Shown here one piece after another: positions 5,591 to 29,431 of a stretch of 33,288 nucleotides of DNA. A program made the translations under genes and the position numbers. The notes beneath the pieces were generated by a model. The model was given only the letters and a program-made list of their open reading frames with translations, was not told the origin of the DNA and made no database searches. This DNA comes from a virus: positions 1 through 33,288 of the IMG/VR virus record IMGVR_UViG_3300035703_002023; one strand, written 5' to 3'. Within the stretch, counting starts at the first letter, position 1. Each line of letters opens with the position of its first letter.

Positions 5591-6028
5591 CTATTCTAAC
5601 GAAATAATTTTATTGAGTTCTAAACGTTTAATATAAAAATTATTTTGTTTTGGGGTAACCCATCTTAAGTTATCTATATGATTATTAAAGGGGTTTGCGT
5701 CGATATGATCTACTATTAGCAGTTCTTTAATTAGATTTTTTATTTCTTCTGGTGTTCTTTGCCAAATTTCTAAACTTACTGGGGGGTATAGATCAATCGG
5801 CTTGAATGCTGTCGCAACAAGCCTATGCACTTTCATATATTTATTTTTTTTGTTTATTCGCAAATGAACAGATTCGCAATTGCCTCTTTGCAAATAAATT
5901 TCTTTATTTTTCTTTAAAGGCTTATCTTTTTTTCTTACGTTACCAAAATTAGAAACAAAATAATCTTCATAAACAATATTATCAATAATTATTTGTTTCC
6001 AAATTTCTTCTTGTGCCGCTTGTTCCAT
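5591..6028 (-). CDS. HNH endonuclease with NUMOD4-like N-terminus
   Basis: The 145-residue protein opens with a NUMOD4-like segment (about 8-32: EIWKQIIIDNIVYEDYFVSN then FGNVRK). The HNH core follows: KVHRLVATAF (66-75), VDHIDANPFNNHIDNLRWVT (106-125) and N129/N130, with H108 and N120 in the expected active-site places. About 30 residues separate the first His block from the second. Such free-standing enzymes are selfish homing nucleases common in T4-like phages. It lies between the terminator of the structural gene at 6090-7271 and the small-gene operon. I see no good Shine-Dalgarno before its ATG: only the GGGG of the terminator stem and a U-rich tract precede it. Confidence 0.85.
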   Translation of the reverse strand: MEQAAQEEIWKQIIIDNIVYEDYFVSNFGNVRKKDKPLKKNKEIYLQRGNCESVHLRINKKNKYMKVHRLVATAFKPIDLYPPVSLEIWQRTPEEIKNLIKELLIVDHIDANPFNNHIDNLRWVTPKQNNFYIKRLELNKIISLE

Positions 6029-7373: not shown

Positions 7374-8315
7374 TCATGCATCAAACACTTCGCCCGTTTC
7401 TGTACTAATAACTTGTGCTTCTCCCCACATATCACGGTGGGTGTCTTTGTATTCCTTAATTGCGCTTGGCTCGTTTGGCAGGAAGGCATCAGAAGTAATA
7501 ACAAATTCGCCAGCCATAGCAAGGTCGGTGATGTGATTTTTTTCAACACTGAGCTTTGATACAAGAGCAAAATCAAAATCCTTTCCATCTTTCTTGGCAG
7601 ACAGTTTACCTTTGCCACTCATTTTCCATACGGCACTGGCGCTATACCAGATGGCGTCACCGCCATAAGGCACTAGCTTGCTATGCCCACCAATAAATGT
7701 TGGGGGTTGCGTGTAGGCTTGGTTAAGGATCATAAGCCCTACAAATTTAGGGAAACTATAATTACGTGTTTGGTTAATCTTGCGTTGAACAATTCGCATG
7801 TTTTCACGAATTGCCTTAGCAGCACGCATCATGCTTGCTTTCTTTTCTGTGGTGCCGTCCTCTGCTGTTTTAATTTCATCTTTGGAAGGTAATGAGCCTA
7901 CTGAATCCCAAAGAATAATTGTATCTAGTGGTAATTCGCCCATAGAGACATCGCTGACGATTTTATCAACAAAGGTGAACACTTCTTCAAGCGTGTTGCA
8001 TTCTTCGTTTATAATGCATCCTTCGACGTTTACGCCCATCTTCTCAGCACGGCTCCAATCTACCTTACCTTCAGTCATAATAAATACTGGTAGGATATCT
8101 TGCTTTTGTGCTTGTGCGGCTGCGTGGAATAGTAGCGAAGTTTTACCTGTGTCGCTCTTACCATAGATCTGAGTAATGTGACCTAGTGGAATCCCCGGCA
8201 TGCCAATAACTTCTTGAATGCATTCATCAAGCACGATGTATTTATCTGCTTTCTTTTCTACTTGGTTAATTTCTACTGTTTTTTTGTAAGATGCAAGATC
8301 AAATTTCTTAGCCAT
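7374..8315 (-). CDS. uvsX: UvsX/RecA-like recombinase
   Basis: This 313-residue ATPase forms filaments on single-stranded DNA and pairs strands for recombination-dependent replication and repair. Walker A is visible at 51-60 (YGKSDTGKTS) and Walker B at 131-137 (DTIILWD), followed by SVGSLPSKDE. Further RecA-like blocks are MMRAAKAIRENMRIVQRKIN and FVGLMILNQAY, with PYGGDAIWYSASAVWKM near the C-terminal part of the core. The length is close to RecA (about 350) and a little shorter than T4 UvsX (about 390). The start has GGAGG about nine bases upstream. It follows the single-stranded DNA-binding protein gene after a terminator, so it may be read both by readthrough and from its own promoter. 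Confidence 0.92.
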   Translation of the reverse strand: MAKKFDLASYKKTVEINQVEKKADKYIVLDECIQEVIGMPGIPLGHITQIYGKSDTGKTSLLFHAAAQAQKQDILPVFIMTEGKVDWSRAEKMGVNVEGCIINEECNTLEEVFTFVDKIVSDVSMGELPLDTIILWDSVGSLPSKDEIKTAEDGTTEKKASMMRAAKAIRENMRIVQRKINQTRNYSFPKFVGLMILNQAYTQPPTFIGGHSKLVPYGGDAIWYSASAVWKMSGKGKLSAKKDGKDFDFALVSKLSVEKNHITDLAMAGEFVITSDAFLPNEPSAIKEYKDTHRDMWGEAQVISTETGEVFDA

Positions 8316-8336
8316 TATATTTATCCTCCAAAGAAA

Positions 8337-8368
8337 GTGGGCAGAGAGTATTATACCCCTCTGCCCAC
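8337..8368 (-). terminator. Terminator after the ssDNA-binding protein gene, with TATAAT in its loop
   Basis: A ten-pair stem (GTGGGCAGAG / CTCTGCCCAC) is followed by TTTCTTT on the minus strand, directly before the uvsX ribosome site. The 12-base loop contains TATAAT on the minus strand. Confidence 0.75.
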
Positions 8369-8391
8369 CAACTTTATAGTGTTTTAAGTTG

Positions 8392-9147
8392 TTAGGACAT
8401 TAGGTCAGCGAAAGCCTTATCTACGGCGCTCGTTGATTTGCTGCCCTTCCCGTACTTTGTGGTTTCCTTGCTGTCGGCTTCAGCATCAGCATCGGAGCCA
8501 CTAGCAAGGTACTCATCTAGAATGGCGGCAACCTCATCGCTGGTCTTGCGTTCAAAGGCTTCATCGAAGTTTGGTACGCTGTCTAGAAGCTCTTTGCAGT
8601 CCTCTGCGGAACCTTGGCAGAGCTTGCTGGTCTTACGGGCTGGTGTTAGCTTCGTAGTTGGGAAGCTGGCACCCGGAACCTTATTAGACACTAGCGATAG
8701 ATCAGTGCCGGTTTCTGGGTCGGTAATGTCACCGTAGTCCTCATTAAGGGTTAGAGTGAGTAGATCTTGGTAAACATTCTTCCCAAAGCCCCATAAACGA
8801 ACGCCATCCTTCTCTTCACCGCGAACAACTACTGGTGCAAAGAAGCGCTGGCGGGCTAGGAACTTCTTAGCCATCTTGTTGCTCTCTTCGGTGCCTTCCT
8901 TGTAGAGCTTACTAGCAAAAGCGCAGATAGCGCAGTCTTCACCGTGGTTCTTCTTTGGACAGAGAATACCGCCCTTGCCGATCTCATAGTGAAAGTAGAA
9001 TTCCTTGAATGGATCACCGTCACTGGTTGGTACGACGCGGATGCTATAGGTAGTACCCTCGTCAGGACGCCAGAAGTTGGTCTTACCCCCGCCCTTGTTT
9101 TGTAGTGCAGCTAGCTTGGCCTTCATTTTCTTGATGTCGATACCCAT
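8392..9147 (-). CDS. 32: gp32-like single-stranded DNA-binding protein
   Basis: This 251-residue protein has the T4 gp32 layout. A basic N-terminal segment for cooperativity (MGIDIKKMKAKLAALQNKGG) comes first. The OB-fold core follows, starting FWRPDEGTTYSIRVVPT, with a zinc-binding set C63-x4-H68-x3-C72-x2-C75 (ILCPKKNHGEDCAICAF). The acidic, low-complexity C-terminal tail ends KAFADLMS. The protein covers single-stranded DNA and organises UvsX and replication proteins. It is shorter than T4 gp32 (301). The start follows AAAGGAG. A strong terminator closes the gene, so its transcript can be abundant and separate from uvsX. Confidence 0.88.
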   Translation of the reverse strand: MGIDIKKMKAKLAALQNKGGGKTNFWRPDEGTTYSIRVVPTSDGDPFKEFYFHYEIGKGGILCPKKNHGEDCAICAFASKLYKEGTEESNKMAKKFLARQRFFAPVVVRGEEKDGVRLWGFGKNVYQDLLTLTLNEDYGDITDPETGTDLSLVSNKVPGASFPTTKLTPARKTSKLCQGSAEDCKELLDSVPNFDEAFERKTSDEVAAILDEYLASGSDADAEADSKETTKYGKGSKSTSAVDKAFADLMS

Positions 9148-9192
9148 GTGTATTGCTCCTTTGCAAGTCGGTAAATCTCCCGCTTGCTGTTG

Positions 9193-9429
9193 TTAGGGAA
9201 GAGTATAGTCGAACTCTTCCAGTTTGTCAACCATCATGTTGTGGTTGAAAATGCGAAAATCTTCTTGATCAATATCCCAAACAAGCTCATTGCCTTCTGT
9301 AAGAAGGTGCTTCTTACCAGAAGTAAACTTGCCTTCAAAAAACTTTGAAGGCAGATCACTAATTTTGACAAAGCGCATTCTTCTACGCTCGCCGTTCTTC
9401 TTAATAAATGTTCCGCTGTAAGCCTTCAT
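9193..9429 (-). CDS. Small SH3-like beta-barrel protein (WYL_2/DUF2693 type), 78 aa
   Basis: The sequence MKAYSGTFIKKNGERRRMRF, then DLP, then ELVWDIDQEDFRIFNHN and VDKLEEFDY, matches a short family of T4-like and cyanophage proteins annotated as SH3 beta-barrel folds. Their role is unknown. I chose the ATG at 9429 because of GAGGA just upstream; an in-frame start at 9477 would overlap the preceding gene. It lies 31 bases after the tubulin-like gene and 45 before the ssDNA-binding protein start. Confidence 0.72.
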   Translation of the reverse strand: MKAYSGTFIKKNGERRRMRFVKISDLPSKFFEGKFTSGKKHLLTEGNELVWDIDQEDFRIFNHNMMVDKLEEFDYTLP

Positions 9430-9460
9430 GCTGTCCTCTATTTTGATTACATTAGCATCT

Positions 9461-10288
9461 CTAACCCACGCTGTCAACAGTCTGTATAAAGTTTGTTTGG
9501 GCTATAAAATAAGAAAAAATATCAGCGTGTTTTGTTGAATGAATTTGATAAGATGAATGCTCTTCTGCTGCTTTTTCTTTAATTAGCTTAAAGAGCTTGC
9601 CGTCAGTTTTTAACACCGCTTCAGGAATTGCATGATAATAGCATTTATACGCAATGTTTTGAAGATTAAAAAAAAGAGTTTCGTTGTTATTTTTCAAATC
9701 ATAAATTCCTAAAGTACAAATACGATATATGTCTTTAGGCGGCTCTTTGTTTTCCACTACTGATTCTGTATTATTGAATACATTAAAGTAGTGTATAGCG
9801 TTTACAATTAATTCATTTAATTTATTGTTATATTCTAGTATTGGGACATCGCCTGTCAAACTTTCTATGACTACATTATCAACAATAAATAATTTAGCAA
9901 ACAAACCAGACCTAGTATATTCTTGTAGCACGTTAAAAACTAGCCTATCTTGCAAAAAACCAGTCTTTGTTAGGCTTTTGGCGTATGGCTTAATATACAA
10001 AATATTAATATTACAATGCGACAGTTGCTTTAAAATTTGTAGCGTAGCGCCGCTGATTTTTCCGCCGCCGCCTACAATAAAAAGAATATCCCCCTCTATG
10101 GCTTTGAAAAAATCAGTCATGTCTGGCACTGCTTGCTCATACTCTTCTGGAGTATTTTTGTAATTTAACGGAAACGAGTTTTCGCCTTTTATGCCAACAT
10201 CAATTTTAAAAACATCATATTGAGGAAATTTTGAAAATTGATCAGCAATTTTGCAACCAGCAGAACCAAGACCAATAACTGTGTCCAT
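9461..10288 (-). CDS. Putative tubulin/FtsZ-like GTPase-fold protein, 275 aa
   Basis: The N-terminus MDTVIGLGSAGCKIADQF matches the first nucleotide-binding loop of FtsZ/tubulins (VIGVGGGGGNAV in FtsZ). Residues 66-81 (GDILFIVGGGGKISGA) fall where the GGGTGTG signature loop lies, and LFIVDNVVIESL (133-144) followed by NNKLNEL (154-160) match the FtsZ strand and N-x-x-D/N-x-L region. The protein lacks a clear synergy-loop acid that I can place, and the second half is divergent, so GTP hydrolysis is uncertain. Phage tubulins (PhuZ, TubZ) form filaments that position replicating DNA or a nucleus-like compartment. Its start is one base after the polymerase stop, so the two are co-translated. It may instead be a related Rossmann protein. 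Confidence 0.6.
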   Translation of the reverse strand: MDTVIGLGSAGCKIADQFSKFPQYDVFKIDVGIKGENSFPLNYKNTPEEYEQAVPDMTDFFKAIEGDILFIVGGGGKISGATLQILKQLSHCNINILYIKPYAKSLTKTGFLQDRLVFNVLQEYTRSGLFAKLFIVDNVVIESLTGDVPILEYNNKLNELIVNAIHYFNVFNNTESVVENKEPPKDIYRICTLGIYDLKNNNETLFFNLQNIAYKCYYHAIPEAVLKTDGKLFKLIKEKAAEEHSSYQIHSTKHADIFSYFIAQTNFIQTVDSVG

Positions 10289-10289
10289 T

Positions 10290-11495
10290 TTATACCTTTA
10301 TCTTAACTTTTTTCATATTACCGTAATCGCTACCAATTTTTACATTAGCTGGAAAATTACCCCATTGAGTGTCGCTAAAAGTCTTTATGATCCTTGGTAG
10401 CAAATGTTTATCTTCTTCTGCTAAATCTATCACAAAACAATCATGCACTAGGAAACCAATAAAGCTTTTTTTACCTTGTAATAAATTATCTACTTTTAGA
10501 ACCTGCCTGTGCATTAAGTCTATTAGTGTGCTTTGATTCAAATAAGAAATTGCGTGATGTTCATCTGCCAAAATATGCCTTTGAAAAGGGGTGTGTACTA
10601 CTCCATCAACCCAATACATATTTTTAAGAGCGGCTTTGTTATAATGAGCATCAAGTTCTGCGTCATATTTGACCGCTAATTTAGCATGGGAATTATAAAG
10701 CCAAGAAGTTGCAGTTTGTTTTGCATCAGTTCTGTTCAACTCGCCTCGAAAGATATTTTTTGCACTCCATTCGTGAAGATCGCCTTCGATTTGTTCTTTG
10801 TTAAGAAGAGCCATTGCTGTGCGTAATTCGGCAGCATTCATATCTAGTTCAACAAACCAATCATTAGTCGGTTGTATAACGCTACGCAGATTTTTATTTA
10901 TATTTAGGATTGGGAAGCTATCTTCACTTACTGTTAAACGACCAGTAACACTGCCAAACATATTGTAGTCTATTTTTGTTTGGCCTCTGTTAATCTTTTC
11001 CCATAACTTTTTACCTTGAATATCCCAAAGCTTTTCGCTAAGCCAGCTACGATTAAGTTGTAGTTCCCTTGTGCGAATATCCCCAACAAGTTCACTGAAT
11101 TCTTTATAGAAATCATATTGGGATGGTTTTTGATGTGTTGTAAAAACGTGCTCAGTGATTTTGTTTTTTGCATCGTAATATTCTTTTAGGTAACGCTCGG
11201 GTACTAGATCAAAAAGACAGTTTTCATTTAATGAAACTTTTGCTTCTATAAAGCTATTAATAAACGCTTTTAGCTTAGCGTTAACGCGATTCCATTCATC
11301 GCGTAGTTCAAGCGGACAGCACTCATCTAGTGTTTTGCCTGCTGCATAAAGTTGGGCATACTGAATATCTTTGCCACGCAAAATAGAAGTATAGCTCCAT
11401 GTTTTGTGCAATTCTTCAATTAAAGAATTATAGATAACTTCGCCGTCTTTATAGAATCCAACACATTCGCCTTTTACATCTAGTACCTGAAACAT
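10290..11495 (-). CDS. Minimal family A DNA polymerase (palm/fingers only)
   Basis: This 401-residue protein shows the family A motifs in order. First comes GSVTGRLT (181-188), followed by PILNINKNLR. Motif A is WFVELDMNAAELR (213-225) with catalytic D218 and E223. Motif B is R255-x3-K259-x7-Y267 (NRTDAKQTATSWLYNS), and YLNQSTLIDLMHR (318-330) corresponds to the QGTAAD helix. Motif C is FLVHDCFVIDL (348-358) with H351 and D352; the usual Glu after it is Cys353. No 3'-5' proofreading or 5' nuclease domain is present; the first 170 residues are unrecognised. It is far smaller than Pol I (928) or T7 polymerase (704). It follows structural genes in the tail operon and is followed after one base by the tubulin-like gene. 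Whether it is the replicase, an accessory polymerase, or part of a split enzyme is open. Confidence 0.82.
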   Translation of the reverse strand: MFQVLDVKGECVGFYKDGEVIYNSLIEELHKTWSYTSILRGKDIQYAQLYAAGKTLDECCPLELRDEWNRVNAKLKAFINSFIEAKVSLNENCLFDLVPERYLKEYYDAKNKITEHVFTTHQKPSQYDFYKEFSELVGDIRTRELQLNRSWLSEKLWDIQGKKLWEKINRGQTKIDYNMFGSVTGRLTVSEDSFPILNINKNLRSVIQPTNDWFVELDMNAAELRTAMALLNKEQIEGDLHEWSAKNIFRGELNRTDAKQTATSWLYNSHAKLAVKYDAELDAHYNKAALKNMYWVDGVVHTPFQRHILADEHHAISYLNQSTLIDLMHRQVLKVDNLLQGKKSFIGFLVHDCFVIDLAEEDKHLLPRIIKTFSDTQWGNFPANVKIGSDYGNMKKVKIKV

Positions 11496-11503
11496 GCATA
11501 CCT

Positions 11504-12760
11504 CTAAAAATTTATTCCTTCGGCTGCGGAAGGGCGACTCTGCGAAGACACTATCTTAATGGCTTCATCTGGGCTTGTCAAGATAGTTTTTTGTTGCTTG
11601 CCTCTGCTTGATAATTCTTGCATTTTTCTATCGACATAGTCAAGCATCACATCTTGACCGGAGTAAGCGTTTAATTTTATAGACTCATTATAAATGATTT
11701 CAAAATTGTTTTGTGTCATAGAAATTGCAAATTCATAAACTTTAATGAATAGATATAATCTAATAAGCCAGTTTATATTATAATTCTTGTCAAAACTTTC
11801 AACGTCTATTTGGTTATAGCTATTTATTTCTGCAAACAAAGAGGAACAGCCAGCCATTTGGCTTTGTTCAGTTGAAAAGTTTTCCTTATTCGCATAAGTA
11901 TTCCAAAAGCTGACTATGTCATTTTTTAGTATTTCTAAGTCTGAATAGTAGGCCACATGATAACATGTGCTCAGAACCTCGTCAACGTTTTCCAAATTAT
12001 ATCTACGATAATAATCTTTCATAACTGGCGATTCTAAATCAGCTATAAGCCTCCAAGGAATATTTTTATCAATTAAAAAACCAAAACGTTTTGCATTTTC
12101 AAGAAAAACATCAAAGTTAGGATCGCTAATAAATTTATCGGCTTTAATTTTTGTATCTGTATAAGATGTATAATCAGCAATATCAATCGTGAGCCCGCTT
12201 ATTGTTGGGCTGCAAAGACGACTTTTTATAAAGGAGCTACGCATGATTGGCGAATACGGAGCGATCAAGCGTACAAAAGATATAAAAACTTTAACAAAAT
12301 CGTCAAAACCTTTGATAGAGGATATTCTTGTCGGTGTTAAATAGGTTGAAAAGAATATGTTAAATAAATTGTTTAAATAATCAACATAAATAACGTCTAA
12401 ATCTTTACCAGTGCTAACAATGTTTAAATTTACATACGTAGAGGCGTTTGTATCAAATTTATTATTTAATAAAAAACTTTTATGATATCTTTTTAAATCC
12501 TGAAAAGCATCAACAACAAAGAATAAGTTTTTATGGATTGTGTTATTGTCGTTTGTATTAAACTGTAGAGCGGATTGCTTTGGATAAATTGCTCTATTTT
12601 GTTTGTCTATTATGCCATAAAACTTGTTTTCCTTCCAGCTATCGAATTGATATGGATAATATTCTTTTTGCAATACATAATCTTCAAAAAATTTATTAAT
12701 ATTATAATCATCAATAACTTTATTTATCTTTACGCTTTCTATAATTTTTTGATTGCTCAT
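11504..12760 (-). CDS. T4-like virion structural protein, 418 aa
   Basis: I recognise only general similarity to structural proteins of T4-like marine phages, notably the block NIPWRLIADLESPVM. The protein is Asn/Tyr/Phe-rich and alpha-helical in appearance, with no signal peptide or catalytic motif. Its ATG shares a base with the stop of the 941-residue gene (TAATG), and the polymerase starts eight bases after it. Position in the tail/baseplate operon argues for a baseplate or neck part. Confidence 0.62.
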   Translation of the reverse strand: MSNQKIIESVKINKVIDDYNINKFFEDYVLQKEYYPYQFDSWKENKFYGIIDKQNRAIYPKQSALQFNTNDNNTIHKNLFFVVDAFQDLKRYHKSFLLNNKFDTNASTYVNLNIVSTGKDLDVIYVDYLNNLFNIFFSTYLTPTRISSIKGFDDFVKVFISFVRLIAPYSPIMRSSFIKSRLCSPTISGLTIDIADYTSYTDTKIKADKFISDPNFDVFLENAKRFGFLIDKNIPWRLIADLESPVMKDYYRRYNLENVDEVLSTCYHVAYYSDLEILKNDIVSFWNTYANKENFSTEQSQMAGCSSLFAEINSYNQIDVESFDKNYNINWLIRLYLFIKVYEFAISMTQNNFEIIYNESIKLNAYSGQDVMLDYVDRKMQELSSRGKQQKTILTSPDEAIKIVSSQSRPSAAEGINF

Positions 12761-15585
12761 TATTCTTCACCTTGCGCCGCTGGCTCCCCATCTATAGGTT
12801 GTGGGTCTGTGCATAGATTTGTTAAATCTTGAGCCGTAAATGGTTTATTGCCGTTCATGTGCGGGACTAAACCATCCCCGTAGGTTATTAATTGGCCTAC
12901 AAGATCACATTTGCTTTTTTCATTTGGGAATGAAGGAGCGTTATTGTTGTCAAGCAACTGAAAATTATATTCAAAAGAAGAATTTTTTATTAAATAAAGT
13001 CCACTATATCCAAACGTATCAACAGTGTCTAAAGAGCCATTCCGTTTATCTGGTGGCGCTACAAACATAAAAGAAGAAACGTCTAGAAAAAAGAAAATGT
13101 ATGGCTTATAAGAACCATTTATGACATATGGTAAACGTAAAAGAGCGCTATTATCTATCGTTTGACCTGTCATTAAGTTAGGATTATCTTTCCTAGAAAA
13201 ATGTAAATTTTTATTTATTAATATGCTTCCGTATGCATCTATCGCTTTTGTACGCAAACATGGCATTTGATATTTAGAAGTTATAAATTCTTGAAATAAT
13301 TGACTAGTATTAGGTTGGCCAGTTCTATTGCGAAACCGCCAATCATCATATTCTGCATAAAAATTATAATATTTTATTTCCTCATCGGCCATTATTGTAT
13401 AAATTTTTTTTAATTTGCGATTTTGCTGCTTTGCCGGTTCCAAATTTTTACTAAGTATAAGTTTTTTCTTTAAATCGTTATATTTGGTATCATCAATAAT
13501 ATCGTCTTCAACAACGTCTAAAAAGTCTTTAACTTTTTTTTCATCTACAAGATGTACACTTGTTACCACGTTTGTGGGGATAAGATCTTTTATGACACCG
13601 CTTACAACACCATCTTGTAAAACTGTTTCTTTTAGAAATGTATCAACTAACTCGCGTAAAAATACTTCGCTGTTATAATTGTAGCCTTCTCGTTGAACAA
13701 TTTTTGTATTCAAAAACTGTAAAAGCTTATAATAATCTATAGGTACATAATAATAGTTTAAAAATATAGAATTAAAATTTGAATCTTGTGGTATTGTTTT
13801 GCCGCCGATTACTATATTTATGTCTTCCGCTCCCGGTAAAGAATTTATTAAACTTATAAGCTGACCGAAAAAAACAAACTGGATAGTAACATCTTGTCCC
13901 GTCTCTTTTATAGTTCTGCCTTTTTCTATGTAATCGCCCACTGATTTAGAGACAGCTGCTCCGTCTTGCGTAAGAGCCTCAAGAAGTCTTTTATTACCTA
14001 AAACAACATCTAGGTATTGATCATTTTTGGCTTTTAGCTTATCTATTTTAGTTGGAAAGGTCGATCTCAATAACACTACACCTTTATTTATAACTTGACC
14101 GCCGTCATTTGCAGCCTGAAAAGCAGAAATAGCCGCATTTGCTCCAACCGTCGCAAGAACGGATGTACCGCCAGAAGCAAACCCTAAAGTAGAAGCTAAA
14201 ACACCTAATCCTACGCTTGTTTCAAAATTACCAGAAAATGTTTTTAAAAAAGAATCAAAAAATTGTGACTGTTCATATTGAACGATATGGCTTGAGTCAA
14301 CGCTAAATTGATAGATATCAAGTTTATTTACAATAGTTCTGAAAAGATTTATTGAAAACTCACCAGATAATTTTTTTATTTTTTCTCGTATGCTTATTAT
14401 CGCTTCATTTACCTGCTCAGTAAATTTGGAATTAGAACTGTTTGGGTTTATCTCATTTGTAAAAAGTCTATTTGGATTTGCAATAAGTTTTTTTACATCT
14501 TTGCCTTCTTTTTTACATTTTATGGCTAATTCAAGATTTTGTATTGTTTTATTATATTGCGATATAGCAGAGGAAAAAATACTAAAAATATCGTCTTTTT
14601 TTGTTTTTTTTATTGTAGAAGCAAATTCAAATTGTGCGCCTACTCTGCTCTCTGTATTCAATAATAAAGAAAATAAATTATTGCTAACAGTTGGCGTATT
14701 AGGATCTTTATTTTGATTAGTCTCCGGGTCTGCTTCATAAGCAATAAAATCTATGATTAATTCGCTATCAAAAGGCTTTAGTGTTGATTCACCGCTTTTA
14801 AAAATATTTATAGAGTGCTTATGAAAAGTAAGATGATAGTTTTTATGTATTTGTTTAATATTATCTAACGCGCTAACTGTTTGTTTAAAATAATCATTAG
14901 CGCCGGGGGACATATCTAACACTTGATTTAATATTAAACCGTTGCCTGTTTTACTTTCTAAAATTTTATTAGAAATATTTTTCGGAACTCTTTTATCATA
15001 ATAGGGATATAATAAGTTTAAAACTGAAATATTTTCTGCTGGAGCTTCTGGACTAGTAATGTTAGTGCCAACTATAACATTTTCTTTTAAATCTTCAAAA
15101 AAATTAAATGCTATATGAAAAGTGACTTGAAAATTTGATTTAGCCGTAAAAGCGTCTTTTGATTTATTAACTATTGTAATTTTGTGAAAAACAAATTTAC
15201 CCCCAAACCCATCTGGATTACTATTTGCGGCTTGGTTTAGCTGATCAATGTTGAAAGAGTATCTAGTATTATTTTTAGTAAATATAATATTGTGATTTAT
15301 TGTATAAGAGCCGTTTATAAAATAATTATCACGTTTTGGGTCGGAAAATAACTCTATAGCCGATTCTGATGTCGGGGCCATATTAGCAGATAACAATTCA
15401 TGTTGCCTTGCTATTATTGTAGCTGCTTCTTTTTTATTTAATGCAGGGCTTCTTTTGTTTGCTAATAATTTAATTTTTGGTTCTTGAGCCGGTTTTATTG
15501 TATTGTCGTTTTTAACTTTATCATAAATTTTATCAGCATTTATAAATAAATATTTTTGTAAAATGTTATCATCAAGTTTAGCCAT
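12760..15585 (-). CDS. Large virion/baseplate protein, 941 aa
   Basis: This very large protein of unknown family lies between the gp53-like wedge gene and another structural gene. It begins helical (ILQKYLFINADKIYDK) and contains beta-rich stretches. It has one hydrophobic Gly/Ala-rich segment near its middle (GLGVLASTLGFASGGTSVLA). The C-terminal third is aromatic and Asn-rich, with LVGQLITYGDGLVPH. The hydrophobic segment could insert in a membrane during injection or be a buried hub. It starts one base after the upstream stop. A baseplate hub/spike-associated role is inferred from position only; no lysozyme or peptidase motif was seen. Confidence 0.65.
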   Translation of the reverse strand: MAKLDDNILQKYLFINADKIYDKVKNDNTIKPAQEPKIKLLANKRSPALNKKEAATIIARQHELLSANMAPTSESAIELFSDPKRDNYFINGSYTINHNIIFTKNNTRYSFNIDQLNQAANSNPDGFGGKFVFHKITIVNKSKDAFTAKSNFQVTFHIAFNFFEDLKENVIVGTNITSPEAPAENISVLNLLYPYYDKRVPKNISNKILESKTGNGLILNQVLDMSPGANDYFKQTVSALDNIKQIHKNYHLTFHKHSINIFKSGESTLKPFDSELIIDFIAYEADPETNQNKDPNTPTVSNNLFSLLLNTESRVGAQFEFASTIKKTKKDDIFSIFSSAISQYNKTIQNLELAIKCKKEGKDVKKLIANPNRLFTNEINPNSSNSKFTEQVNEAIISIREKIKKLSGEFSINLFRTIVNKLDIYQFSVDSSHIVQYEQSQFFDSFLKTFSGNFETSVGLGVLASTLGFASGGTSVLATVGANAAISAFQAANDGGQVINKGVVLLRSTFPTKIDKLKAKNDQYLDVVLGNKRLLEALTQDGAAVSKSVGDYIEKGRTIKETGQDVTIQFVFFGQLISLINSLPGAEDINIVIGGKTIPQDSNFNSIFLNYYYVPIDYYKLLQFLNTKIVQREGYNYNSEVFLRELVDTFLKETVLQDGVVSGVIKDLIPTNVVTSVHLVDEKKVKDFLDVVEDDIIDDTKYNDLKKKLILSKNLEPAKQQNRKLKKIYTIMADEEIKYYNFYAEYDDWRFRNRTGQPNTSQLFQEFITSKYQMPCLRTKAIDAYGSILINKNLHFSRKDNPNLMTGQTIDNSALLRLPYVINGSYKPYIFFFLDVSSFMFVAPPDKRNGSLDTVDTFGYSGLYLIKNSSFEYNFQLLDNNNAPSFPNEKSKCDLVGQLITYGDGLVPHMNGNKPFTAQDLTNLCTDPQPIDGEPAAQGEE

Positions 15586-22618: not shown

Positions 22619-25072
22619 TTATTCAGTAAATGCTGCGCCAGAGTTTGTTACTACGAAATCGATAGCAATATATTCAATTGCTCTGGTTGGTTTAACGAAG
22701 ATCTTGCAGTACATAATATTACGGTCAACAAGGTCAGCGGTTGTTGTGGTGCTATCTAGTACAACTTTTGCATCGTCAAGGCCGTATGCATTTTTGATAG
22801 CAAGTAGGAATGGGTCTACAACACCCTTGAAGTTGTTCCAAGTTGCTTCGATATTTGGCTCGAATAGAACGCGTGTAGCAGCGCGTGAAACTTGTTTCTT
22901 GATATAATTTAGTAATCTGCGGACGTTTACGCGGTCAAGAGCGCTTGGTGTTACTTGTAGTGTTTTTTGACCGAAGATTAGTACGCCTTCATTTGGGAAG
23001 GTAGCAATTGGGTTGATGTTAGCTGCGTACAGATCATCGCGGTCGCTAGCATTTAATTGTAGCGCTGTACGGCTTACGCCGATACCTGCGTTAGCTTCTG
23101 TTAGACCACCACGGTTAAACCCAGCTGGTGCAAACCATAGTGCGCTACGACCTTCTGTGCCACCGAATGCGCCTAGAGCTGCGATAGAAGATGGCATAAA
23201 GATACCTTCGCTGGCTACGAATACATATGGGAAGTATGCAGCACCGTAGCTGTCGTCGATTGCACGCGCAGTTAGGTTTGTGATAACGTCTGTTGTGCTT
23301 GTTGGACGAGCTTCTGTACCAACATTTGTTTCCCAAGAATATTCATAATCGCCGTTAAGATCGATAATTGCCATAGCGTCACCGCGAGCGCGGCAAGTGC
23401 TGATCATATAGCTAGTTAGTGTTTCATCTTTTAAGTTTGGCACGCATAGGATATTCATGTCTACAACTTCTGGGTTTGACACGATATCGATAGCTTGCTT
23501 AACTGAACGATAAGCAGCGCTTGTTGTTTCGTCTTCGCCATCTAGTAGACGAGCATTTACTAGTGGTTCTGCTTCTGTAATATCAACGCCATCAAAGCCA
23601 CCGTGCATTGGCATATTGAAGCCAAGAACTGTACCGGCTGTTAGTAAATCTGTTGCGTTATAGAATGAAGAGCCTTCATATTCAACAGCGGTTGCGCTGC
23701 CAGAGATGTAACGTGTGCTGAATAGAGCTTCAGCCTCTGGTGTTACAGCTGGTTTTTGGCTTAAGATGTCTACTAGGTCTGCGTTGTTTGTTGCGTCTGC
23801 AACTAAACCAAAACGAGTTGATTTGGCTGCTGATAAACGAACGCTGCTTGTTAATAGGGCAAAATCAGCGTGTGAAGTTGTTAAGCCGCCAACGTTGGCT
23901 AAATCTGGTACGCCTTTGATACGGAAGCCGTGTGGTAGCGCTGTTGCAGGAATATCTTCAGCGGCGTTTACTTCTACGCGAACGTATGCGGAACGGTTTG
24001 GATAAGAGCCATATTCAACGTAGTGGCTGTTGGTTGCATCCCAAGCACGATATGAATCACCAATACGCTTGGCGATATAATCATCAGAGTTTACATCTAA
24101 GCTAACGCCTGTAAATCTTTCAAGAACGGTATCTGTGCCGGTTTCGTAGAGCTTACGAACAACAACATCGAATGTACCATATTTTGTTACGTTTGTGTTT
24201 CTTGAAGCGCGTACATTTTCAATTGAAATTTTAATTTCTTTTGATAAGCTTGCACCGCTGTTTAAACCAACAAACTTAAATAGGTCAATTGGATCGCTGC
24301 CGCTTGCATGATCGCCTGTTACCCAGCCGCTCTCTGCATTTAATGAAGCACTAGCGTGTGAGTTCCAGCCAGTTAATGCTTTAACATAAATGCTAGAAAC
24401 GCTTGCTGGTAATGAATTTTCAAAAGATTCACCTAGGAAATAGCCTTTATCACTAAACTTTGTTGGGTTTGTGTTTAATACATTTCGTAGGAACGAGCCA
24501 GAAGTTGGGACTAATGAAAATGGTACCTGTGTTCTACCGGTTGAAGCGCTTACAAATAGGTTACCAGCGTTAGAAGCATATGAACCAGAACCGTCGCTTG
24601 TAAAGCCACCAACGCTGTTGGAGACTTCTAGAGCAAAGCCGCTGTCCATATAAACAACACCAGCTAGTTTAGCAGTCGATGACGAAACAGCATAAACACC
24701 ATAAGCTGTTGTTACTGACCAGCCGGGATCGCCAGTTTGGCCTGTGCCTTTTTCTACACCAGCAAGACGAACAACTGTTACTGGGCTTGAGTTACGAAGA
24801 AATGCTTTCGCTGCATAAGTTGCAAAAGTTGGGGCTGTTGGAACACCAGTACGCCATACGTCAGTAGCACCTACGGTACCGTTTGAAGCCGCACCGAATA
24901 CTCTTTCTAATTCACTAACATTATTTACAACTACAGGTTGCATTGCAGGACCACGCGCTGTACGACCAATAACTACTGGTCCAATAGCTGGTGGAGTTGG
25001 TTGAATAACCGACTCGTCTATTTCGTTGATTTGTACGCCGGGGGATACAAAACGGAATTGTTCAATAGCCAT
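22619..25072 (-). CDS. 18: Tail sheath protein (gp18)
   Basis: This 817-residue contractile sheath subunit begins FRFVSPGVQINEIDES and has GPVVIGRTARGPAMQPVVVN (typical sheath N-terminus). Its C-terminal domain contains VNVRRLLNYIKKQVSRAATR, VLFEPN, TWNNFKGVVDPFL and FVKPTRAIEYIAIDFVVTN, the handshake-forming end. T4 gp18 has 659 residues; the extra length is in the middle beta-rich domains, which face outwards and vary between phages. The order sheath then tube matches T4. A CTACTTAT box lies 45 bases upstream and AGGAGA is the ribosome site. Confidence 0.95.
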   Translation of the reverse strand: MAIEQFRFVSPGVQINEIDESVIQPTPPAIGPVVIGRTARGPAMQPVVVNNVSELERVFGAASNGTVGATDVWRTGVPTAPTFATYAAKAFLRNSSPVTVVRLAGVEKGTGQTGDPGWSVTTAYGVYAVSSSTAKLAGVVYMDSGFALEVSNSVGGFTSDGSGSYASNAGNLFVSASTGRTQVPFSLVPTSGSFLRNVLNTNPTKFSDKGYFLGESFENSLPASVSSIYVKALTGWNSHASASLNAESGWVTGDHASGSDPIDLFKFVGLNSGASLSKEIKISIENVRASRNTNVTKYGTFDVVVRKLYETGTDTVLERFTGVSLDVNSDDYIAKRIGDSYRAWDATNSHYVEYGSYPNRSAYVRVEVNAAEDIPATALPHGFRIKGVPDLANVGGLTTSHADFALLTSSVRLSAAKSTRFGLVADATNNADLVDILSQKPAVTPEAEALFSTRYISGSATAVEYEGSSFYNATDLLTAGTVLGFNMPMHGGFDGVDITEAEPLVNARLLDGEDETTSAAYRSVKQAIDIVSNPEVVDMNILCVPNLKDETLTSYMISTCRARGDAMAIIDLNGDYEYSWETNVGTEARPTSTTDVITNLTARAIDDSYGAAYFPYVFVASEGIFMPSSIAALGAFGGTEGRSALWFAPAGFNRGGLTEANAGIGVSRTALQLNASDRDDLYAANINPIATFPNEGVLIFGQKTLQVTPSALDRVNVRRLLNYIKKQVSRAATRVLFEPNIEATWNNFKGVVDPFLLAIKNAYGLDDAKVVLDSTTTTADLVDRNIMYCKIFVKPTRAIEYIAIDFVVTNSGAAFTE

Positions 25073-27610: not shown

Positions 27611-29431
27611 TTAGCCGAGTAGATCTTGTACGATGCAGAGGCCGTACATGTCTGGGCGAACCATCGCCTTACCATAACGGGTCATAACGGCCTTGCGTGG
27701 TGTGAAGGTGTCAGGATCGAAGATGGTTGGTGTGGTTTGTAGTGGAACGTATGGAGCGTAAACATAGCCGCTTTCGAGGAATGAAGCGCCCTTACGACCA
27801 ACGAGGATTACGTTACGTGGGAAGTATGGGTCAACGATTACGTCGAATTTAGCGTTTAGTGCGCCAACTTTAACTGCACCTGTTGAGCCTTTTTCGCTGT
27901 CGTGTGTAACGGTAGCGCGGAAACCAGCGGTGAATTCAAGGATGTTCGCAACTTCTGGTGAAACAACGACGAAGTTAGCGCCACCGCGTAGTGTCTTACG
28001 GTGGATGTTAGCTGAAACGTCATTGATTGTTTCGATGAGGGTTTCATACCACATTGAAACGTTACCAGTGAAGTCAGGAGGAGCAGCGTAGTTGCCAGCG
28101 CCTAGATCAACACCAGTGTTGCGGTTTACGAACTTGCCGGGACGACGTGACCAGTACTTAACACCGCCTGTTGCGCCCTTGACTAGATCGTTTAGAATTT
28201 CTTGATCAATTTCAAGACCGATTTGTTCTGAAAGAATTGAGGTTAGCTCAACTTCAGCGTCGAGGTTGTGGTAAGCGTTTAGATCTTGGCCGAGTTCTGG
28301 GGTCCAAGCTGCCTTGAGCTTGCGGGTACGAGCTGAAATATTGAAGCTGTCAACCTTAAGTTGGATTTCTTTTAGGTCGGCGCTGTTTTCTAGTGACCAA
28401 GGAGCAATACCTGCGAGTGAGCCAAGTACGCTGTTACCCATGCTGTCGGTTACGCCAGTGAGCTTGTCCTTGATTGGAACTTCAACAACTAGTGAAGCTA
28501 CTGAACCAGTGGCAAAATCATCGCCAGCTGCGAATGAGACTGATGATGTGTGGAGGAATACCATTTCAACGTACTTGGTACCAAGAGTGTCGGCAGCAGC
28601 GTAAACGCCAGCGCCTTCGACAACTTTGGTTAGGCGACGAACTGGTACAGCAAGTAGACCAGCTGCTGAAGCTAGCGAAGCAACTGATGAACCACTGCCA
28701 GCTGTAGCTGAGCCTGAAGCGATTGAGATTGAGGTTAGATCTTGTTCAGCAATTAATGCACCAGCGGTGGTTAGTGCTGAAACTGGGAAACGAACAACAA
28801 CTGCCTTCTTGCTGGTTTCTGCAAGAAGATCTGGGTCTTCGCGAAGAAGAACTTTTTCTACGTCAGTTGGTGACGCAAGGTTAGCTGAAGCAGTGATTGC
28901 AACTACGCTTGTACCTGCAACTGTTTCGGCATAACGGGCAGTACCGTAACCGCTGGTTAGAGCGAAGAAGCCTTTTTCAGCGTAATCGTTACCGTCTACG
29001 CGAACGCCTTTACGAATTTCTTCACCAACGCGATCACCGAAGAGTGATTCGTTTTGTGAGATAACTTTATCGTTAGCAAGACCGAGATCATTACCGTGGC
29101 GGAAGTCCATGAAGAATACTAGACCGCTTGGTAGTGACATTGGTTGTACTGAAACTAGATCGTTGGCGATAAGGCCAGCGAATACGCGGCGAACGATTGG
29201 GAATGCCACAGCAGCAAAACCTTGTACGTCGCCACCTGACATGGTGTTAGCTTCGCGGAGTAGTTCTTTGGCTTGGTTCTCTAGTAGAACCGCCATTGAA
29301 CCACGTTGGTATTCGTCTTGGATACCTTCGAGTAGACCGCTGTTTTCCCATTTTTGAACTAGTGCTACGCTTTCCTTGCGCTTGTCTTGAAATACTGTGC
29401 CTTCTGTGAGGCGTTCTAGAATATTAGCCAT
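27611..29431 (-). CDS. 23: Major capsid protein precursor (gp23)
   Basis: This 606-residue protein is the T4 gp23-type HK97-fold capsid subunit. The region FAAVAFPIVRRVFAGLIAND then LVSVQPMSLPSGLVFFMDFR aligns with the first conserved block of mature gp23 (MGMVRR-x-I-P-x-LIA-x-D then VQPM). Just before it, ELLRE60-A61 fits the gp21 rule (Leu/Ile-x-Glu, then Ala/Gly/Ser), so the mature chain should start at Ala61, close to T4's cut after Glu65. Another matching site is LTE10-G11. The C-terminal half has FVVVSPEVANILEF, KFDVIVDPYFPRNVILVGRK and PDMYGLCIVQDLLG. T4 gp23 has 521 residues, so surface insertions are likely. Codon use looks more G+C-rich than in neighbours, as expected for a highly expressed gene. 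Confidence 0.95.
   Translation of the reverse strand: MANILERLTEGTVFQDKRKESVALVQKWENSGLLEGIQDEYQRGSMAVLLENQAKELLREANTMSGGDVQGFAAVAFPIVRRVFAGLIANDLVSVQPMSLPSGLVFFMDFRHGNDLGLANDKVISQNESLFGDRVGEEIRKGVRVDGNDYAEKGFFALTSGYGTARYAETVAGTSVVAITASANLASPTDVEKVLLREDPDLLAETSKKAVVVRFPVSALTTAGALIAEQDLTSISIASGSATAGSGSSVASLASAAGLLAVPVRRLTKVVEGAGVYAAADTLGTKYVEMVFLHTSSVSFAAGDDFATGSVASLVVEVPIKDKLTGVTDSMGNSVLGSLAGIAPWSLENSADLKEIQLKVDSFNISARTRKLKAAWTPELGQDLNAYHNLDAEVELTSILSEQIGLEIDQEILNDLVKGATGGVKYWSRRPGKFVNRNTGVDLGAGNYAAPPDFTGNVSMWYETLIETINDVSANIHRKTLRGGANFVVVSPEVANILEFTAGFRATVTHDSEKGSTGAVKVGALNAKFDVIVDPYFPRNVILVGRKGASFLESGYVYAPYVPLQTTPTIFDPDTFTPRKAVMTRYGKAMVRPDMYGLCIVQDLLG

Follow-up and report, generated by a model that had tools for sequence, protein, structure and literature searches.

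The phage sequence analysed here encodes a small protein, which we call TUB, that judged by its predicted fold almost certainly belongs to the tubulin/FtsZ superfamily, and that is retained in the replication gene cluster of a large clade of uncultured, mostly marine T4-like phages. In the model it is a highly divergent and minimal member of this superfamily, with two domains in about 275 aa. Phage tubulins are known from the nucleus-forming jumbo phages and from a few plasmid-like phages. Their existence, as well as the automatic FtsZ labels carried by a few proteins of uncultured phages, was already on record; what is new is the universality of TUB in a large T4-like clade, its fixed place at the side of polA, and an altered active site accompanied by an invariant motif. 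No earlier report of the family was found in the literature searched (openly licensed papers only), and the paper on Far-T4 phages (PMC4360716) makes no mention of FtsZ or tubulin.

The window, that is the whole stretch of DNA analysed, is an entire IMG/VR record of 33,288 bases. The open reading frame of TUB lies on the minus strand at positions 9461..10288, begins with ATG and codes for 275 aa; it is real and was found exactly where the initial annotation had placed it. The same annotation had attributed the DNA to a T4-like phage, and the gp23, sheath and tube genes agree with this. Indeed, the T4-type major capsid protein gp23 (27611..29431, minus strand; PF07068, E 3.1e-74) identifies the phage type, and the window also contains the tail sheath, tail tube and baseplate protein genes of a T4-like myophage. 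The sheath protein (22619-25072, minus strand) has 817 aa against the 496 positions of its PHROG profile, which implies a large insertion. Two other minus-strand genes may be mentioned here: a 388-aa protein (1159-2325) carries three Cu-binding MopE-type repeats (PF11617, E 6.4e-9), which is unusual in a phage, and a 145-aa ORF (5591-6028) resembles by eye an HNH/NUMOD4 homing endonuclease (VDHIDANPFNNHIDNLRWVT).

The fold of TUB was settled by structure prediction; sequence tools alone do not settle its likeness to tubulin. An AlphaFold2 model, built without templates from an alignment of 42 sequences, reached a pLDDT of 94.4 and a pTM of 0.92. Its strands and helices follow the order of tubulin, with a nucleotide domain, a long core helix (residues 150-172) and a smaller beta-rich domain. 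A Foldseek search of the PDB ranked TubZ first (4ei7, E 1.4e-12, TMq 0.69), and the best 50 matches were all TubZ, FtsZ, CetZ or tubulin and spanned both domains; the alignments had a TMq of about 0.66-0.73 over about 310 columns. Together, the predicted two-domain tubulin fold with its core helix H7 and these 50 matches uphold the tubulin/FtsZ assignment made in the initial annotation. Among viral models, the best match, which is also the strongest fold match overall (E 4.3e-13, TMq 0.78), was A0A6J5RW92 in BFVD, a 452-aa protein of an uncultured Caudovirales phage that is labelled "FtsZ Cell division GTPase" and shares 16% identity with TUB; it shows that relatives have already entered the databases with an FtsZ label assigned automatically. 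PhuZ proteins were matched as well, and an earlier, poor model of TUB (pLDDT 60) had also ranked FtsZ first. The model has neither helix H8 nor a C-terminal tail; the final strand stops at residue 265 of the 275, and most members of the family end within a few residues of that strand.

Sequence searches by themselves were only suggestive of tubulin/FtsZ. With the protein of the window, sequence searches of Pfam, PHROGs and the PDB gave no meaningful match, and HMMER profile searches of the PDB with 7 and with 42 TUB sequences returned only noise. Among 42 relatives, the Pfam Tubulin profile (PF00091) matched four (best E 0.0086) and the NCBIfam ftsZ profile (TIGR00065) three (best E 0.0009), none of them above the curated cut-off, and neither profile matched the protein of the window at all; the generic Rossmann NAD-binding profile TrkA_N matched seven (best E 0.0069). 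The motifs GLGSAG (residues 6-11), GGGGKISG (73-80), FIVDNVVIESL (134-144) and NNKLNEL (154-160) do lie where the initial annotation had read them, and taken alone they would be weak evidence for tubulin/FtsZ. They are not due to chance, since they are conserved in 100 relatives that are less than 90% identical (G6, G8 and G11 100%, G76 98%, N138 99%, N158 99%) and are placed in register with FtsZ by hhalign. In this comparison the TUB family profile aligned with FtsZ over residues 3-166 (158 columns, P 2.9e-4), the TUB motifs falling on T1, T4, T6 and H7, and reversed decoys gave P values of at least 0.22; the alignment with PhuZ covered 98 columns (P 0.003). The hhalign probability of the match to FtsZ, 40%, is modest. 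A protein of another kind was also considered, namely a Rossmann protein binding NAD or another dinucleotide, which would account for GxGxxG, for the acidic residue D30 that closes strand 2, for TrkA_N matches as frequent as Tubulin matches and for the hhalign match to TrkA_N (P 1.5e-3). However, that match extends over 31 columns against 158 for FtsZ, and the 50 best PDB matches come exclusively from the tubulin superfamily, second domain included, which leaves this alternative very little probability.

TUB lies within a cluster of replication genes that are all on the minus strand. Directly upstream is the gene of a 401-aa A-family DNA polymerase (10290..11495; PF00476, E 1.3e-7), whose stop comes one base before the TUB start, and upstream of this polA gene is that of a conserved 418-aa protein of unassigned function (11504..12760; no PHROG match). 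On the other side, a small ORF of 94 aa (9193..9477; weak match to phrog_2267, E 0.013) overlaps the end of TUB by 17 bases and is followed by a gp32-like single-strand DNA-binding protein (SSB; 8392..9147; phrog_1192, E 6.8e-25) and a UvsX-like recombinase (7374..8315; phrog_97, E 1.7e-31). The prevailing order in 145 loci, on one strand, is 418-aa protein, polA, TUB, an ORF of about 90 aa, SSB and UvsX: polA is upstream of TUB on the same strand in 135 of them, SSB downstream on the same strand in 139, the UvsX cluster downstream in 118, and the cluster of the 418-aa protein is present in 108; the small ORF next to TUB (position +1) belongs to cluster 17 in 23 loci and to cluster 11 in 41. 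In 86 of 134 loci the polA reading frame either runs into the TUB start or stops directly at it (median -1 base), which suggests coupled translation. Further downstream, relatives carry genes for dCMP deaminase, exonuclease, DnaB helicase and ribonucleotide reductase. A strong terminator-like hairpin with 13 pairs, 8 of them G-C, lies between the SSB and UvsX genes of the window (8336-8369, minus strand). Centromere repeats of the TubZ type or a TubR-like arrangement were looked for and rejected, no repeat array being present at 8900-11600 and the neighbours being polA and SSB. The idea of TUB as a replacement for the sliding clamp proved uninformative: in a search whose T4 control was positive, the clamp family was undetected in 10 TUB contigs and also in immuto and RM378.

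Relatives of TUB are encoded on at least 592 IMG/VR contigs. The capsid gene gp23 was present on all 10 large TUB contigs tested (102-184 kb), and the largest carrier contig, at 184 kb, is below jumbo size. A second sample was gathered by searching with the polymerase gene and not with TUB, which avoids choosing only sequences that resemble the TUB query. In the mostly marine clade selected in this way, TUB was found in 47 of 49 members, the two exceptions ending shortly past polA, and in all 41 members having at least 2 kb of sequence downstream; in the immuto-type clade of the same sample it was found in none of 21. Moreover, TUB and polA distances in the polA-selected set are correlated (r 0.84), as is expected for co-inherited genes. 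TUB belongs to the fixed core genes of a large far-T4-like phage clade and is tightly coupled to the polA gene. We read this clade as mostly marine, judging from the sample set and from how the clade relates to the Far-T4 phages (PMC4360716). A TUB copy on a bacterial chromosome (WOR-3 MAG CP070664.1, positions 7514-12873 of locus L090) was treated as a binning or scaffolding artefact, because this 5.4 kb phage piece, with the 418-aa protein, polA, TUB, SSB and a truncated UvsX in a supposedly closed MAG, adjoins runs of 100 N, has ordinary bacterial genes on either side, and no gp23 was found.

No recognisable relative of TUB was found in the collection of cultured phages searched by tblastn, in which a match to a Vibrio phage (E 0.6) was at chance level. 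When UvsX is compared, Flavobacterium phage immuto (Immutovirus) comes out as the nearest cultured phage, and gp23 also ranks it with the nearest; it has the order polA...SSB-UvsX of the TUB phages. Its polA-SSB interval (1346-2318 of locus L088) holds two unrelated small ORFs of 151 and 171 aa in place of TUB, and a profile search did not find TUB anywhere in the immuto genome. That immuto gp002 and gp003 might be a split tubulin was rejected, as they show no profile similarity.

The nucleotide site of TUB is in part that of FtsZ and in part altered. The T1 loop GLGSAG (10256..10273, minus strand), with its three invariant glycines, aligns with T1 of FtsZ. N138 in the T6 loop (9875..9877, minus strand) falls on IPN165 of FtsZ in the hhalign register, and N158, which ends the segment YNNKLN at the start of core helix H7 (residues 153-158; 9815..9832, minus strand), falls on the first residue of the FtsZ H7 Asn/Asp pair. 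Both are predicted guanine contacts, at the positions through which FtsZ and tubulin recognise guanine; position 153 is Y or F in 99% of the 100 relatives. The T4 loop GGGGKISG (10049..10072, minus strand; aligned with FtsZ GGGTGTGA) is non-canonical. At the GGGTGTG site of FtsZ, TUB members have mostly G-[SAG]-G-x-[IV]-S-[GA], and the canonical signature [SAG]GGTG[SAT]G occurs in 0 of 144 members and in 0 of 43 of the polA-selected set, so that the alteration of this loop pointed out in the initial annotation recurs in all of these members. In the T7 segment (residues 173-189; 9722..9772, minus strand) there is no conserved catalytic acid, and helix H8 is missing. Acidic residues reach at most 67% at any position of the stretch from about 172 to 189 (67% at 186, 42% at 179), and residues 176-184 include no D or E in 18 of 100 members; the T7 acid is retained in the FtsZ (NxDFAD) and PhuZ (LDxxD) sequences. 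Since the T4 signature, a conserved T7 acid and H8 are all absent, classical GTP hydrolysis is unlikely, and TUB does not count as a standard tubulin GTPase. The loss of GTPase activity that had been raised as a possibility in the initial annotation gains support from the T4 loop change and the non-conserved T7 acid.

These differences also set TUB apart from the known systems. With bacterial and archaeal FtsZ it shares the fold (TMq about 0.7) and the register of T1, T3, T4, T6 and H7, but identity is 10-15% and TUB lacks GGGTGTG, NxDFAD and H8. TubZ of Bacillus plasmids (4ei7, 2xka), although the best PDB match by its tubulin fold, has about 400 aa against 275, and TUB has no partition-type neighbours, repeats, tail or T4/T7 signatures. 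PhuZ of the nucleus-forming jumbo phages (phiKZ gp39, 201phi2-1 gp59) is likewise a phage-encoded tubulin fold with a relaxed T4 loop, and a link to phage DNA is likely common to both. However, tblastn gives no significant similarity between PhuZ and TUB, TUB lacks the conserved T7 acid and the C-terminal tail, and its carriers are T4-like with contigs of at most 184 kb. Moreover, PhuZ is dispensable (PMC13282480), whereas TUB is fixed beside polA. TUB is not a recognisable orthologue of PhuZ or TubZ.

Given that TubZ is the closest solved fold, that PhuZ was matched among viral models and that the PhuZ T4 loop is also relaxed (GGxSGS), TUB might form a dynamic cytomotive filament of the PhuZ/TubZ type, which would hydrolyse GTP at an altered site and position phage DNA or capsids. 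We regard this as quite unlikely, as PhuZ retains an LDxxD-type T7 motif where TUB has no conserved acid, TUB has no C-terminal tail, and neither a TubR-like arrangement nor a repeat array stands beside it. Several kinds of phage inhibit FtsZ, and an FtsZ-like fold with altered catalytic loops could also suit an antagonist, a GTPase-dead mimic capping or poisoning host FtsZ and blocking division. This seems more doubtful still: identity to FtsZ is just 10-15%, the longitudinal surfaces are altered, and TUB is fixed in a replication operon, unlike host-takeover genes, which are usually variable in place and presence.

The most unusual feature of TUB is a family-specific motif, Q-x-[YF]-x-R-S, which reads QEYTRS in the window (residues 122-127; 9908..9925, minus strand) and lies at the C-terminal end of helix H5. 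In the alignment of the 100 relatives it is essentially invariant (Q122 and S127 100%, R126 98%, Y124 97%). From topology, the motif would sit at the end of the GTPase domain opposite the nucleotide, facing the next protofilament subunit. Judged by topology, the most invariant residues of TUB form two groups: G6, G8, G11, D30, G74, G76, N138 and N158 would lie at the nucleotide end of the GTPase domain, and Y24, Q122, Y124, R126, S127, H166 and N169 at its other end. Invariance at both ends is what a head-to-tail interface would require. In the polA-selected set, which adds 43 new and more diverse members, Q122, R126, S127, G6, G8 and G74 are present in 43 of 43, and N138 and N158 in 36 of 43 each. 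Some lineages have lost the guanine residues (N138, N158) or T4 glycines and kept Q...RS, for example L250, L253, L258, L261, L265, L270 and L288; some of these are perhaps locally misaligned, but the trend is nonetheless clear. These seven are possible pseudo-tubulins. The trend points to a conserved job of TUB that would not need an intact GTP pocket in every lineage, and since pocket residues are lost in several lineages while Q...RS stays, GTP-gated assembly cannot be universal.

The mechanism that we favor, tentatively and with less than even confidence in it as a whole, is a replication-associated scaffold with GTP binding in most members and head-to-tail assembly. TUB would be made together with the DNA polymerase, and most members would bind GTP or GDP at the usual tubulin site. 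The lower face of each subunit would dock onto the nucleotide face of its neighbour, giving short filaments or oligomers that may anchor or place the replication machinery or the DNA of the phage. Turnover would not proceed by classical T7-acid hydrolysis; assembly might be quasi-static, as for PhuZ D190A, which without the catalytic T7 acid still forms GTP-dependent, static filaments (PMC4244570), or might be controlled by a partner. We infer GTP binding, head-to-tail assembly and the role in replication; the predicted fold, the 99% conservation of N138 and N158, the fixed order polA-TUB-SSB-UvsX and the co-inheritance with polA support the mechanism. Against it stand the T7 loop and H8, which are central to the longitudinal contact of FtsZ and tubulin and are shortened and unconserved here, the apparent loss of GTP-pocket residues in several lineages, the lack in the model of a C-terminal tail of the PhuZ/TubZ type, and the modest profile support obtained from sequence (hhalign probability 40%).

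A close rival of this scaffold, possible though on the unlikely side, is a replisome adaptor that does not polymerise: TUB would be a monomeric or dimeric accessory of the polymerase or SSB, GTP binding a relic or a switch, and QxYxRS the surface that docks a partner. The strict place between polA and SSB, with polA and TUB frames overlapping or abutting, the co-inheritance with polA, the missing T7 acid and H8, and the decay of the pocket in some lineages where Q122, R126 and S127 stay at 43 of 43 would all fit such an adaptor. On the other hand, the asparagines N138 and N158 stay at 99% in the bulk of the family, and most tubulin-fold proteins so far characterised polymerise; a gp45-type clamp is undetected in immuto and RM378 too, and its absence is therefore no specific pointer to TUB as a substitute. 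The scaffold and the adaptor are each more likely than FtsZ poisoning or a fully dynamic filament of the PhuZ kind. A broader reading, rather doubtful as it stands, is that the tubulin fold has become a standing part of the phage replisome, co-translated with the polymerase and kept in every clade member examined, in which the GTPase machinery would be eroding, entirely so in some lineages, and a new invariant QxYxRS surface would have taken over the function.

To conclude, TUB is found in hundreds of mostly marine T4-like contigs, in which standard annotation misses it, and it adds to the spectrum of cytoskeletal-type proteins known from viruses. The active sites of the family grade naturally from near-intact to eroded, a series in which one can ask what a tubulin fold is able to do without hydrolysis. 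Our results suggest a role of tubulin-type proteins in virus replication that reaches far past the giant phages in which they are known, and TUB makes it directly testable whether ordinary T4-like phages organise their replication by means of a tubulin.
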